From contig JAIKXM010000045.1 in NCBI GenBank assembly GCA_024684085.1, forward strand, positions 1 through 64,000: a stretch of 64,000 nt of DNA. The letters run 5' to 3'. The position numbers and the translations under genes are program-made. The notes below the pieces were generated by a model that saw only the letters and a program-made list of their open reading frames with translations, made no database searches and had not been told where the DNA came from. Source of the stretch: Lachnospiraceae bacterium. GTDB lineage: Bacteria; Bacillota; Clostridia; Lachnospirales; Lachnospiraceae. Shown here one piece after another: positions 53,166 through 60,010 of the stretch. The stretch's first letter is position 1. Each line of letters opens with the position of its first letter.

Positions 53166-53219
53166 TTTTATCTCCGATCATTCGTCACCACTAATATAGT
53201 GCTTCCGTTCAAAGCTCAA

Positions 53220-53300
53220 CGGACACTAAGCTCGCAAGAATGCTCGCTAAGTGCCGATGCTCACACAAGCGTTTCTTGTGAATATTTTGTCCTTCATTAT
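53220..53300 (-). repeat. Half copy of a MITE-like element, inverted relative to the copy at 56393
   Basis: Read on the minus strand it matches the first 75 or so bases of the element at 56393-56524, including CAAGAAACGC, GGCACTTAGCGAGCA and GCGAGCTTAGTGTCCGTTG. The second half of the element is absent or diverged. It lies between folP and folBK. Confidence 0.7.
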
Positions 53301-53336: not shown

Positions 53337-54128
53337 CTATCTAACTGAATCCCGAATAGCTTCAGTCAACCTTATAGCCTGTACATTGGCGGCTACATCA
53401 TGAACTCTTATGAATGTCACTCCCGCATTAACTCCCAGTACCGAAGTGGCTATCGTACCGTTAAGTCTCTCCTCAACAGGAAGGTCAAGCGTATTGCCGA
53501 TGAATGACTTACGGCTCGCTCCGAGGAGTACCGGAAGCCCCAGAGCCGTCAGCTCATTAAGCTTAGCCATTGCCACAAGATTGCCGTGTGTATCCTTACC
53601 GAAGCCGAGTCCCGGATCAAGGATAAGCTTATCACGGGCTATTCCATGATTCTCCGCATTGGCTATAAGATCAAGATTATCCTGTATCATATTGTCATGA
53701 GGTCCGGTATGCATTATACATACAGGCACTCCTGCCTCGGCCACAACGCCTGCCATATCCGGGTCGCCCAGAAGTCCCGTAACATCATTGGCTATATCAG
53801 CGCCGGCCTTAATGCCTTCACGCATAACTTCCGCCTTATAACTATCCAACGAGATAACAACATCCATCCGGCTCCTTATGGCTTCAATAACGGGCAGCAC
53901 CCTTGCGGCCTCTTCATCCGCCGATACCTTCTGCGCCCCGGGTCTGGTGCTCTCACCGCCTATATCAATGACCGAAGCCCCTTCCTCTATCATCTGTTCA
54001 CAATGTCTCAGATGCTCATCCAGAGCTTTCCTTGCATTTCCATCATAAAAAGAATCCGGCGTAACATTAAGTATACCCCAAATCCCAATTTTATCTTTAT
54101 TGCCTATATCAATCCCTCTGACTAACAT
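53337..54128 (-). CDS. folP: Dihydropteroate synthase
   Basis: A 263-residue TIM-barrel enzyme joining p-aminobenzoate to the pterin pyrophosphate; the target of sulfonamides. GILNVTPDSFYDG, DIGGESTRPGA, ILDPGLGFGK and LLGASRKSFIG are the standard signatures. AGGAGG lies 5 bases before the ATG. It is separated from folE by the insert carrying the AbiE-like module and the CRISPR remnant. Confidence 0.96.
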   Translation of the reverse strand: MLVRGIDIGNKDKIGIWGILNVTPDSFYDGNARKALDEHLRHCEQMIEEGASVIDIGGESTRPGAQKVSADEEAARVLPVIEAIRSRMDVVISLDSYKAEVMREGIKAGADIANDVTGLLGDPDMAGVVAEAGVPVCIMHTGPHDNMIQDNLDLIANAENHGIARDKLILDPGLGFGKDTHGNLVAMAKLNELTALGLPVLLGASRKSFIGNTLDLPVEERLNGTIATSVLGVNAGVTFIRVHDVAANVQAIRLTEAIRDSVR

Positions 54129-54171: not shown

Positions 54172-54915
54172 CTACGAATACATCTTCTCGAATATATTCA
54201 ATACTTCTCCCATGGATTCATTTATTCCAAGTTGCTCAGTTCTAACAGGTTCATCTTTGACAGTATCAATAAAGAGTCGAATGCTCTCCTTCACCAAACC
54301 ATCTACCGAAATATGGCTATCAGGATCAATAATAGCATATAATCTGAACACATCATTTTTGTGTTTCTTATAATCCCGCTCATTAACATGTTCTCCGGCT
54401 GCTTTGCGCCTTCTTAAATCTATCCAGGCATACATCTTGAACGGAATTAAATACTCTGCCCCCAAAACAGTAATACCTGCAACTGTACGACGGCCTCTTA
54501 ACATGAAGTTATAAAAATCATCATTCAACAGAATCGCCGACAGACTGGATGTATCATCATCAATATAAATTGGAATTATTCCTTCTTCAACTTCCAAATG
54601 GTATCCCGGTTTGCGTGAAAACAATTCAATCATAACAGGATAACCTTCCGACGGATTCGTAAACCGATAGAAATGCATATCGCCACTATTCTTCCAGCCG
54701 CACCTATATCCGCCAGTTTTAATATATTCCCAAAAAACCTTTGCAAATTCTGCTTGTCGATCTTCAAGGATTAAGATTATATCTATATCCTTCGTCAAAC
54801 GAAATTCTATATTGGCTTCTGACATCAGAATATCACATGCAGTTCCACCAATAACAGTATAGCAATCTTCAAAACCTTGAAATTGATTTTTAAATGAGTC
54901 TAATCCAACTACCAT
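54172..54915 (-). CDS. AbiEii-like nucleotidyltransferase (putative toxin)
   Basis: A 247-residue protein with a DNA polymerase beta-type nucleotidyltransferase core: VIGGTACDIL (Gly23-Gly24), TKDIDIIL with Asp43 and Asp45, and a third acidic residue in VMIELFSR (Glu97). Downstream motifs IPFKMYAWIDLRRRK and RDYKKHKNDVFRL fit the AbiEii family, the toxin of type IV toxin-antitoxin systems. It overlaps the upstream wHTH gene by 7 bases, as toxin and antitoxin genes do. Its base composition is AT-richer than that of the fol genes. Toxicity is an inference. Confidence 0.65.
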   Translation of the reverse strand: MVVGLDSFKNQFQGFEDCYTVIGGTACDILMSEANIEFRLTKDIDIILILEDRQAEFAKVFWEYIKTGGYRCGWKNSGDMHFYRFTNPSEGYPVMIELFSRKPGYHLEVEEGIIPIYIDDDTSSLSAILLNDDFYNFMLRGRRTVAGITVLGAEYLIPFKMYAWIDLRRRKAAGEHVNERDYKKHKNDVFRLYAIIDPDSHISVDGLVKESIRLFIDTVKDEPVRTEQLGINESMGEVLNIFEKMYS

Positions 54916-55868
54916 TCATAATTCTCCAAGTATTCTTCCAATTCACCAAGTACTCGCTCATCCGCACCATTCGCTAAAGATTTAGAAAGTGAAACAACAT
55001 CAACACCATTCTTAGTTGTAAAAAAAGCAGGATTATATTTCCACAATTCAATCCGATAATACATTGAATTAGATGTCCACTGCGGATCAATAATATCAAA
55101 ATCTTTTACTGCAGAATTACCTTTATATACTGCAAAGCATCTCACGCCTGGTTCAGCCAGCATCGAATTACGACTCAATGCCGATTCTCCCGCTTCATAT
55201 AGATCATCCATATCTTTAACTCCGGCAACATATATCGTTTTTTGAACTGGATTAATCAAATATGGTTTAGCCGACTCATAGTAATCCCTACCGGTAGAAA
55301 CCGGGCGCATATATACTGTTTTACCTTCACTTTCTTCGGTAATAAGCCCCATAGCTTTTAACTGTTCTGAAGCTCGAGTAATTGAGGTCTTGGTTAGCCT
55401 AAGATCTTTTGCAGCTTCAGATTTCTTAACCGCTTCTTTTTTACCATACAAAAGATAAAGGAAAAGGCTCTGTGTTGCAGGCATCATTTTATCTACACAT
55501 ATTTCTTTTACTCTTTTAAAATGATTCCGCAACGCTATTCCCATCACCGGCAAATAAAACTGATCAGGCAAACATACAAAAGAAATCCTATTCGAAACCA
55601 ATGCATCTCTTTGGACCTTACTTACACTTTTAAATGCATAGATAACATTCAATCCGGACTTCTCACTGTATTGAATAGCCTGCTTCTTAAGTGCAATCGT
55701 TCCGAATCTGTCCGATATCGATAATTCAACTAACAGAAATGTATCATCTTCATAGCGAAGTGTATACATCTTCCTGCCGCTCTTCATATATACCGGTAGG
55801 CCTTTTATATTTGTTTCCTCGATCAAACAATCAATCCCAAAGGATTCCTTCAATGCAGTCTTAATCAT
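54909..55868 (-). CDS. Winged-helix AbiEi-like regulator (putative antitoxin)
   Basis: A 319-residue protein. Residues 1-120 form an alpha/beta domain (LLVELSISDRFG, LNVIYAFKSV, ISFVCLPDQFYLPV). Residues 128-190 form a winged helix (KSEAAKDLRLTKTSITRASE with wing MRP). Residues 200-319 include YEAGESALSRNSMLAEPG, which resembles the C-terminal part of AbiEi/MarR-like partners of nucleotidyltransferase toxins. AGGAG before the ATG. The promoter region holds a four-half-site operator, fitting autorepression. Classic AbiEi has its wHTH at the N-terminus, so this is a variant architecture. Confidence 0.6.
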   Translation of the reverse strand: MIKTALKESFGIDCLIEETNIKGLPVYMKSGRKMYTLRYEDDTFLLVELSISDRFGTIALKKQAIQYSEKSGLNVIYAFKSVSKVQRDALVSNRISFVCLPDQFYLPVMGIALRNHFKRVKEICVDKMMPATQSLFLYLLYGKKEAVKKSEAAKDLRLTKTSITRASEQLKAMGLITEESEGKTVYMRPVSTGRDYYESAKPYLINPVQKTIYVAGVKDMDDLYEAGESALSRNSMLAEPGVRCFAVYKGNSAVKDFDIIDPQWTSNSMYYRIELWKYNPAFFTTKNGVDVVSLSKSLANGADERVLGELEEYLENYEW

Positions 55869-55953: not shown

Positions 55954-56055
55954 GCCTAAGCCCCCTATGAATTTGCACTGCTCTCAAACATATGATCAAG
56001 GTTGTTGATGGCTATATAAGCTTGAGCCCCCTATGAATTTGCACTGCGAGTTCAA
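55954..56055 (-). CRISPR. Type II CRISPR remnant: one repeat, 30-nt spacer-sized gap, repeat-like anti-repeat
   Basis: The minus strand carries a 36-nt repeat at 55989-55954 that begins GTTTGAGAGCAGTGCAAATT, the form seen in type II repeats. Exactly 30 bases away, 56055-56020 holds a second 36-nt block identical over the central 22 positions but different at the first nine or so. That block is the anti-repeat of the tracrRNA. No cas1, cas2, cas9 or further repeats are in the window. Confidence 0.75.
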
Positions 56056-56133
56056 ATAAAAGTTTACTCAAATCGCCGGTTCGTCCGGCCACACAGTGTG
56101 TGTGACTAATAGAGTTCTTCGGAAGTCTTTTTT
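56020..56133 (+). ncRNA. tracrRNA of a type II CRISPR system
   Basis: The plus-strand transcript would begin with a full anti-repeat (56020-56057). It pairs with the repeat by 22 perfect base pairs plus 5 outer pairs including wobbles. Then comes an asymmetric bulge (CGAG-side against GAG) and a 6-bp lower stem (TCAAAT with GTTTGA), the classical crRNA:tracrRNA layout. Next follow a GCCGG/CCGGC hairpin (56075-56089), a CACAC/GTGTG hairpin (56090-56102), and a terminator hairpin with a TTCG loop and T6 (56112-56133). A TATATAA box just upstream may be the -10. Confidence 0.75.
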
Positions 56134-56392
56134 GTTTTGTCAGAATTATTACTACTCACTCTTCCATTTTATCAGATGACAGACATAAATACAGTATTTT
56201 TAATATTTTCAATATTTTCGGATTTTTAATACATTATTCATTCTTCGTTACAATAAAAAAAGATCTCACGGAGAGATCCTATAGATATACTACAATTAAT
56301 ATTCTTTAGCTTAGCCTCTGAAGCTGATCATATATTATCAAGCCCCACACGATCTTTTGCAAATGATCGTTTTCTTTGCTTTTCTTAAATCA

Positions 56393-56524
56393 GATTCATG
56401 ACAATATATTCGCAAGAAACGCCTATGGGAACGCCGGCACTTAGCGAGCAGTATGCGAGCTTAGTGTCCGTTGCGTTCACATCGGAGCGAAAGCGCCGTT
56501 TCGGTGAATATATTGTCCTGAATC
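56393..56524. mobile_element. MITE-like element with 19-bp terminal inverted repeats
   Basis: The left end 56393-56411 (GATTCATGACAATATATTC) and right end 56506-56524 are inverted repeats matching at 18 of 19 positions; pairing continues imperfectly inward (AAACG). The middle contains a second imperfect palindrome around GGCACTTAGC and GCTTAGTGTCC. It has no coding capacity. A half copy lies at 53220-53300. Confidence 0.65.
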
Positions 56525-56550: not shown

Positions 56551-57120
56551 TCAATTGATCCTGAAGTTCCTTACGCGACCGTAGAAAGTGCTCTGGAGCT
56601 TATCATTATTAACAAAATCACCTCTGGTAGCAACCGTCACCGTACTGCTTCCCGGCTTCTTAACACCTCTCATGGTCATACACATATGCTCAGCCTCCAG
56701 CATGACCATAACGCCCTTGGGATTGAGTTCCTTCATTATGGCATCGGCGATCTCTGCAGTCATCCTCTCCTGAATCTGAGGTCTTCTTGCATAGACCTCA
56801 ACCGTCCTTGCCAGCTTACTGATACCTACAACTTCACCATTGGGGATATATGCCACATGAGCCTTGCCATAGAAAGGCATAAGATGATGCTCGCACATTG
56901 AGTAGAAAGTAATATCCCTCTCGACAACCATCTCATTATTATCGACAATGAATCTCTTGCTGAGTATCTCATGGCAGTCCTGACCCATACCGCTGAATAT
57001 CTCTTCATACATACGTGCGATACGGTCCGGCGTATCCTTAAGACCGTCTCTCTGCGTATCCTCACCTATTGCTTCCAGCAGCATAGTAACTGCCTGCATT
57101 ATCTTCTCTCTATCTGCCAT
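56551..57120 (-). CDS. folE: GTP cyclohydrolase I
   Basis: The first enzyme of folate synthesis (GTP to dihydroneopterin triphosphate). 189 residues; the zinc ligands Cys76 and His79 lie in [10 protein letters not shown], and Cys147 in [19 protein letters not shown] is the substrate-site block. The ATG at 57120 follows AGAGGAG at 5 bases; a 9-codon longer frame is rejected. Coded behind folC; the MITE-like element starts 27 bases after its stop. Confidence 0.96.
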
Positions 57121-57152
57121 CTTTGCTCCTCTACACCACTTGCTCAAATTGT

Positions 57153-59196: not shown

Positions 59197-59306
59197 TGTA
59201 ATCCTTGTAATCCCGTATCGCGATCCATGTAATCCCGTATCGCAATCCTTGTAATCCCGTACCGCGATCCTTGTAATCCTGCATCGCGATCCTGCTAATC
59301 CCGTAC
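59197..59306. repeat. 22-bp tandem repeat, five units
   Basis: Units begin at 59197, 59219, 59241, 59263 and 59285, each close to CGCGATCCTTGTAATCCCGT plus two bases; the first is partly diverged, and a partial sixth begins at 59307. The array lies between the PH-protein gene start and the pyrI stop. Confidence 0.9.
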
Positions 59307-59322
59307 CGCGATCTGCCATAGC

Positions 59323-59766: not shown

Positions 59767-59808
59767 AAGCCCAATCTCTCCATTATTTCTTATGTACTCT
59801 ACACACAA

Positions 59809-60010
59809 TAACCGTTGTCACAGGGACTGACTCTGCACGAAATATCCGTTGTCACAACGACTGACTCTGCACGAAATATCCGTTATCACAGCGACTGACT
59901 CTGCACGAAATATCCGTTATCACAACGACTGACTCTGCACGAAATATCCGTTATCACAGGGACTGACTCTGCACGAAATATCCGTTACCATATAGACTGA
60001 CTCAGCAAGA
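59809..60010. repeat. 34-bp tandem repeat, about six units, between pyrB and pyrI
   Basis: The word GACTGACTC(T/A)GCA recurs at 59825, 59859, 59893, 59927, 59961 and 59995, exactly 34 bp apart. Units are nearly identical (for example GCACGAAATATCCGTT), with small changes in the CACAAC/CACAGG segment. The array fills almost the whole 267-base gap. Confidence 0.95.

Follow-up and report, generated by a model that had tools for sequence, protein, structure and literature searches.

A tracrRNA fused to a repeat end in a Lachnospiraceae genome: the probable scar of an excised type II-A CRISPR-Cas9 system

The stretch of 64,000 nucleotides that was analyzed (hereafter the window) contains a gap of 2.4 kb between folP and folE, which is filled by an AbiE-like gene pair and by a short CRISPR-like element consisting of a single repeat, a spacer and a tracrRNA-like sequence (Table 1). 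The initial annotation had placed a repeat on the minus strand and its anti-repeat on the plus strand, 30 bp apart, and this arrangement was confirmed by sequence comparison. Read in the same direction the two form a direct repeat of 28 nt at 93% identity, with 22 nt identical and a start-to-start distance of 66. The outer end of the window repeat reads CTTAGGC, where CTCAAGC is found in the arrays of a genus mate (G017, locus L038) and of another member of the family (G436, locus L142).

Table 1. Features at the tracrRNA-like element of the window and the genes around it
Feature	Position	Strand	Remarks
CRISPR repeat GTTTGAGAGCAGTGCAAATTCATAGGGGGCTTAGGC, 36 nt	55954-55989	-	read as the last repeat of a former array
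Spacer, 30 bp	55990-56019	-	same length as in the G017 array
Hybrid segment/anti-repeat	56020-56047	+	repeat-type end GCTTGAG (56020-56026) continued by sequence that repeat and anti-repeat have in common; proposed site of the recombination
tracrRNA core GAGTTCAAATAAAAGTTTACTCAAATCG (bulge, lower stem, linker)	56048-56075	+	26 nt identical in genus mate G017
Nexus-like hairpin	56075-56089	+	fold prediction
Second hairpin	56090-56104	+	fold prediction; covarying pairs in alignment A2
Former terminator hairpin and T run	56111-56133 (hairpin 56111-56128)	+	G:G mismatch in the stem (56114/56125)
AbiEii-like nucleotidyltransferase	54172-54915	-	PF08843 at 20.4 bits, under the cut-off of 22.5
Putative regulator of the AbiE-like pair	54909-55868	-	no Pfam match; homologues in 2 of 19 other genus genomes
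folP	53337-54128		context of the insertion
folE	56551-57147		context of the insertion

Folded together, repeat and tracrRNA are predicted to form 28 continuous upper-stem pairs, an asymmetric bulge and a lower stem of 7 bp, rather than the 22 perfect pairs and the 6-bp lower stem that had been claimed. The stability expected of such a duplex was borne out, as its predicted energy is -58.7 kcal/mol, whereas random pieces of the window (up to 2000) averaged -20.4 kcal/mol, with an sd of 3.5 and a lowest value of -33.8. The element thus shows the anti-repeat pairing, lower stem, bulge and 3' hairpins that characterize type II tracrRNAs structurally. Folded alone, the window tracrRNA is modestly more stable than its shuffled versions (z -1.7; 15 of 200 shuffles were as good). 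The covariance model R1 scores the window at 90.5 bits, the window itself being among the 27 sequences of that model, and a scan of the window against Rfam returned no family at its gathering score.

The description of the element as a complete tracrRNA gene did not hold. Its 5' part is derived from a repeat, it has no -10-like box of the kind present in the nearest intact relatives and, although both of the proposed hairpins were recovered, the proposed terminator was not: its stem is mismatched and the pattern scan called no plus-strand terminator at the end of the tracrRNA. Neither was a sigma-70-type promoter called just upstream on the plus strand of the window; the one promoter-like match is located at 56226-56254. 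Judged by pattern only, the own promoter and the working terminator of a type II tracrRNA are thus both missing. In the Cas9-adjacent relatives an uninterrupted stem with a T-rich tail of 7-15 pairs was found in all 35 cases (median 9), while the best stem of the Cas9-less tracrRNAs had 0-11 pairs (median 6, with at least 5 pairs in 8 of 11); the script picks the longest uninterrupted stem that is followed by a T-rich tail, which is not always the terminator. The altered end of the last repeat, the G:G mismatch and the lack of promoter and terminator calls favour decay in the window; the changes in repeat and terminator suggest a certain age, and the residue would appear to be non-functional and decaying.

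Searches of the window and of the draft genome it belongs to (G000; 2.36 Mb in 46 contigs, 85.7% complete) gave no match to Cas9, and the window gave none to the Cas9, Cas1, Cas2 and Csn2 of G436 either, the search in the rest of the genome covering Cas9. The type II-A hallmarks cas9 and csn2, accompanied by cas1 and cas2, are therefore absent from the locus, and in place of an array of two or more repeats there is one full repeat plus the hybrid. A BLAST search of the genome with a 201-bp query yielded no second good copy, the three other matches having E values of 0.4-5. The early statement that no cas9, cas1 or cas2 lies in the 64 kb is consequently upheld, and the same holds for the suggestion of a Cas-less type II relic or decayed locus: the proposed search for cas9 and for further repeat copies found neither of them in this genome, given its 85.7% completeness.

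A comparison with the tracrRNAs of Cas9 systems from the family, likewise proposed at the outset, was informative. Over 79 nt, the body of the window tracrRNA shares 86% identity with the Cas9-linked tracrRNA of G017, which is oriented divergently to the gene for a Cas9 of 1345 amino acids (TIGR01865, 846 bits), with an array of GTTTGAGAGCAGTGTAATTCTATAGGGGTCTCAAGC behind it. In G436 (L142) and in G293 (L137) the order is tracrRNA, cas9, cas1, cas2, csn2, array, the Cas2 of G293 being detected by tblastn only, and in G436 the distance from the tracrRNA to the first repeat amounts to 6.05 kb. Given this gene order, the anti-repeat and the array repeats constitute direct repeats (~20-28 bp) that flank every cas gene. 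The window locus resembles these two type II-A loci in its repeat, the 30-bp spacer, the tracrRNA core, the nexus-like hairpin, the anti-repeat and the relative orientation of tracrRNA and repeat. It differs from them in having a single repeat, in lacking cas9, cas1, cas2, csn2 and the leader, and in an anti-repeat whose outer end is repeat-derived and is not preceded by the -10-like box. The locus of G017 itself (L038 12377-16683) is a Cas9 locus in mid-decay, in which tracrRNA, cas9, the array and a csn2 remnant are kept; cas1, cas2 and codons 1-131 of csn2 gave no match in the 33 kb fetched. Upstream of it (L038 949-7199) lie genes for a Dynamin_N GTPase and a HerA-like ATPase, and such genes also adjoin an orphan tracrRNA in G196 (L109 12847-18999); they perhaps represent a common defence cassette.

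Related elements were collected in two ways. A scan of the genome_contigs collection with the 28-nt core (partly degenerate) recovered 26 stretches, in 21 of which the tracrRNA adjoins a Cas9 match; the stretches without Cas9 beside the tracrRNA are L074, L075, L085, L088 and L091. The R1 model identified 17 loci in as many genomes among 397 genomes of the window's family, 14 of them Cas9-adjacent and three not (the window, G111 and G619). Among 137 genomes of the order of G195 (Lentisphaerota-group) it identified 7 loci in 6 genomes. In six of these loci, from five genomes, the 1.5-kb flanks contain no Cas9 match and the sequence opens with the full repeat end GTTTGAG; the seventh, in G293, has cas9 and no GTTTGAG start. 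The layout of the window, i.e. a repeat or repeat end, 30 bp and an anti-repeat with a start-to-start distance of exactly 66 (36+30), recurs in L085, which is one of the six Cas9-less loci of the Lentisphaerota-group, and in L141. The leftover repeat of L141, which stems from G619 in the window's family, has survived in part only, and similar ends occur on the Cas9-adjacent tracrRNAs of this subgroup, so that the tracrRNA end of L141 is not diagnostic and the locus is placed by layout and spacing only. The stretch of L085 also carries an integrase and a D5-type primase-like gene. The flanks of the scars that were fetched gave no match to Cas9, Cas1, Cas2 and Csn2 of G436, and no Cas9 over the cut-off was found in G000, G195, G292, G275, G619 and the hosts of L088 and L075, some of the Cas9-less hosts having short matches of 21-33 bits below it. 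The Cas9-less loci L140 (G111), L088 and L075 have no hybrid end. Since L140 still has its -10-like box along with the initial codons of a Cas9, it must have been lost in another way, and other routes of loss hence exist. In two genomes of the Lentisphaerota-group the orphan tracrRNA is adjoined, in opposite orientations, by very similar predicted regulators (L091 3677-4690 and L138 9811-10794), which we take to be of the WYL type.

The most telling comparison is that of the tracrRNA end with the end of the repeat. Ten intact loci had one or more array repeats within the DNA fetched, and in all 10 of them the bases just outside the common core of the tracrRNA are not identical to those of the own repeat. 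In G017, for instance, the tracrRNA reads TTTATAG-ACCCC and the repeat GCTTGAG-ACCCC, although in G293 the two differ at 2 of 7 bases only. The window anti-repeat starts with GCTTGAG, which is the repeat end of G017 and G436; against its origin as a scar it can be argued that this sequence differs from the GCCTAAG of its own leftover repeat. A repeat-type end of the form G[CT]TTGA[GTC] was seen in none of the 35 readable Cas9-adjacent tracrRNAs (36 in total, L134 being unreadable) and in 7 of the 10 readable Cas9-less ones (11 in total, L136 being unreadable). Given that this pattern was written post hoc, when the scars had already been seen, and that the repeats of some Cas9-adjacent subgroups end differently (GTTTTAG, GTTTAAG), the locus-by-locus comparison is the fairer test. 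In G017, G436 and G293 an extended -10-like motif begins 47-48 nt upstream of the core; all seven hybrids lack it. As it is present in 15 of 35 Cas9-adjacent loci (in 14 of these at 45-48 nt), its absence on its own is weak evidence. Five of the hybrids have no leftover repeat and were judged against G293; with that reference four hybrids carry CACTAC with the tracrRNA-type A and two CACTGC with the repeat-type G, a split that is consistent with different crossover points. A repeat-type outer end fused to a tracrRNA body, with no cas genes between them, is the mark that we propose for such scars, and it is present in the window.

Considering the anatomy of the residue, its hybrid end, the intact architecture of the relatives, the lack of a detectable Cas9 and the repeated occurrence of such elements, we regard the window locus as a scar left by the excision of a type II-A CRISPR-Cas9 system, with a probability of around 0.83; the recombination event itself is inferred from sequence. 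The ancestral order would have been a divergent tracrRNA, then cas9, cas1, cas2, csn2, the leader and the array. A single event of recombination or replication slippage between the anti-repeat and, in the window, the next-to-last repeat of the array would have removed the promoter of the tracrRNA together with the complete set of cas genes, the leader and almost all of the array, a loss of at least 6 kb. It would have left the array flank, the last repeat, the last spacer, a hybrid of the outer end of a repeat and the common core, the tracrRNA body and the terminator. With the next-to-last repeat as partner one repeat and one spacer would remain (the window, L085, L141), and with the last repeat nothing else (L074, L091, L108, L115, L118). 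Every scar has 0 or 1 full repeats, which speaks against this scheme in that a randomly chosen partner should often leave more; shrinkage of the residual array after the loss of cas1-cas2 may be guessed at as the cause. The system's own anti-repeat thus appears to have served as deletion site repeatedly, in two putative phylum-level groups.

The alternative that survives best, albeit as an improbable one, is that the hybrid tracrRNA, with or without its one-spacer mini-array, is kept as an orphan RNA with a role that needs no Cas9 of the same locus; it might decoy or prime a Cas9 that enters the cell, or terminate a transcript that starts upstream. The numbers in the Lentisphaerota-group order, where the 7 matches in 137 genomes comprise six Cas9-less hybrids or scars and one intact locus, would fit such a role, as would the location of the hybrids L074, L091, L108 and L115 downstream of co-directional open frames, the stem of L108, both sides of which deviate from those of its relatives (GCCC/GGGC in place of GCAC/GTGC), and the stems of 8 and 11 pairs that are kept in L074 and L108. 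The conservation of the core carries less weight here, because the searches used that core, by the search pattern and by a model built from its matches, and detection bias thus accounts for part of it. The missing -10-like box, the lack of a sigma-70-type promoter call just upstream on the window's plus strand and the median best stem of 6 pairs, against 9 in the Cas9-adjacent tracrRNAs, argue against a retained function. The early suggestion of an RNA kept for another role is therefore disfavoured rather than refuted, the deletion anatomy and the signs of decay weighing against it.

Given that the genomes are drafts, it is conceivable that a contig with Cas9 is missing or that a join is chimeric. 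A short-read assembler could have joined the array end to the tracrRNA across their 22-28 bp of identity, with the cas genes ending up on a lost contig; the junction does lie exactly in the sequence that both partners share, and G000 is incomplete and fragmented (85.7%, 46 contigs). Such an artefact is nevertheless unlikely, as the same error would have to recur at eight loci from seven genomes, with loss of the matching Cas9 in every case, including that of G619 at 98% completeness, as three of the joins are in the correct 66-nt register, and as the altered last repeat and terminator of the window suggest age. The use of the window repeat and tracrRNA in trans by a Cas9 elsewhere in the cell, or in the terms of the initial annotation an array remnant serving such a Cas9, was rejected as highly improbable, since G000 has neither a Cas9 match nor a second copy of the repeat and since the Lentisphaerota-group hosts that do have a Cas9 elsewhere, G196 and G197, carry it (~1035 amino acids, no Csn2 match) beside arrays of a different repeat, no array matching the scar repeat being found in G195-G197.

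The scar probably lies in a genomic island. FolP was detected in 18 other genomes of the genus; in 9 of them FolE is its neighbour, and in the other 9, G017 included, no FolE match was obtained within about 1.5 kb or less on each side of FolP. As folE and folP are parted in the window by 2.4 kb with the AbiE-like pair and the scar, the CRISPR locus probably arrived in an island and was later lost; there is some indication that the AbiE-like pair on the minus strand (54172-55868) is another part of that island. A relative with an intact CRISPR locus at the folE-folP site was not found, and the window's own ancestor is thus unseen. The surroundings contain further repeats: an element of ~75 bp occurs in inverted copies (85%) between the scar and folE (56400-56473) and between folP and a folB-folK-like gene (53217-53291). 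A 34-bp tandem repeat of six copies (59796-60007) is located between two genes, presumably an aspartate carbamoyltransferase-like gene and the gene of its regulatory-subunit-like partner, and a 22-bp tandem repeat of five copies (59201-59313) just past the latter.

The spacer gave no clue to a target. The 27-nt core of the window spacer had no exact match in viral_contigs, and the best matches of the spacer among phages (E 0.6; 32 records at E up to 10) and plasmids (E 2; 5 records) were not convincing. The possibility of spacers directed against cas genes, as in the I-F orphan arrays of E. coli, was dismissed: compared with 40 cas-bearing loci, the spacers of the window, L085 and L141 reached at most 23, 21 and 20 matching bases out of 30, respectively, values that the best of 20 shuffled versions of each spacer attained as well. 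Orphan CRISPR arrays, e.g. CRISPR2 of Enterococcus faecalis and the I-F remnants of E. coli, are similar to the window in that cas genes are lost and an array residue is kept (PMC5491264, PMC5972030, PMC8616872), but the window also keeps a tracrRNA, fused to a repeat end, and its spacer has no above-chance match to cas-bearing loci. The solitary repeat units or Racr anti-CRISPRs (PMC10651486, in whose searched text no word begins with 'tracr') share the single repeat without cas genes, whereas the window has a spacer and a tracrRNA body. A Racr or phage-borne RNA was rejected as an explanation, there being no match in the viral or phage collections and three matches of 27 nt at E 0.5 to plasmids. 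These units are virus-encoded and often lie just downstream of a promoter; no promoter was called beside the window repeat, and the window, with provirus status judged by the gene neighbours, does not conform to this type. Loss of a whole locus, partly by recombination between similar flanking sequences, has been described for type III-A deletion mutants of Staphylococcus epidermidis. There the loss involved IS elements, a transposon, paralogous genes and cassette excision (PMC3784566), as opposed to the system's own tracrRNA and array in the window. In a literature collection outside which most subscription papers lie, none of the matches listed by title and abstract opening dealt with recombination scars between tracrRNA and repeat.

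Overall, the locus represents an ordinary fate, that of a decayed CRISPR locus, with an informative anatomy. The anti-repeat provides all type II-A loci with this gene order with built-in direct repeats around the whole cas operon. It is a tempting, if doubtful, extension that the tracrRNA gene doubles as an excision site, such that Cas9 immunity is lost in a single precise event which leaves a readable fossil, and that scars may outlast the systems they derive from, there being six scars and one intact locus in one order. A still more daring idea is that the promoterless hybrid could serve an incoming related system as docking site or act on it as a decoy. One practical consequence is that finding a tracrRNA does not by itself indicate a working Cas9. 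In many cases a patchy distribution is the only ground on which a loss of CRISPR immunity is inferred. Excision at the anti-repeat would explain the clean disappearance of a whole cas operon without mobile elements, and a repeat end fused to a tracrRNA body would provide a signature by which losses of Cas9 systems can be counted and placed on trees, so that the rate and route of CRISPR-Cas9 loss would become directly testable.
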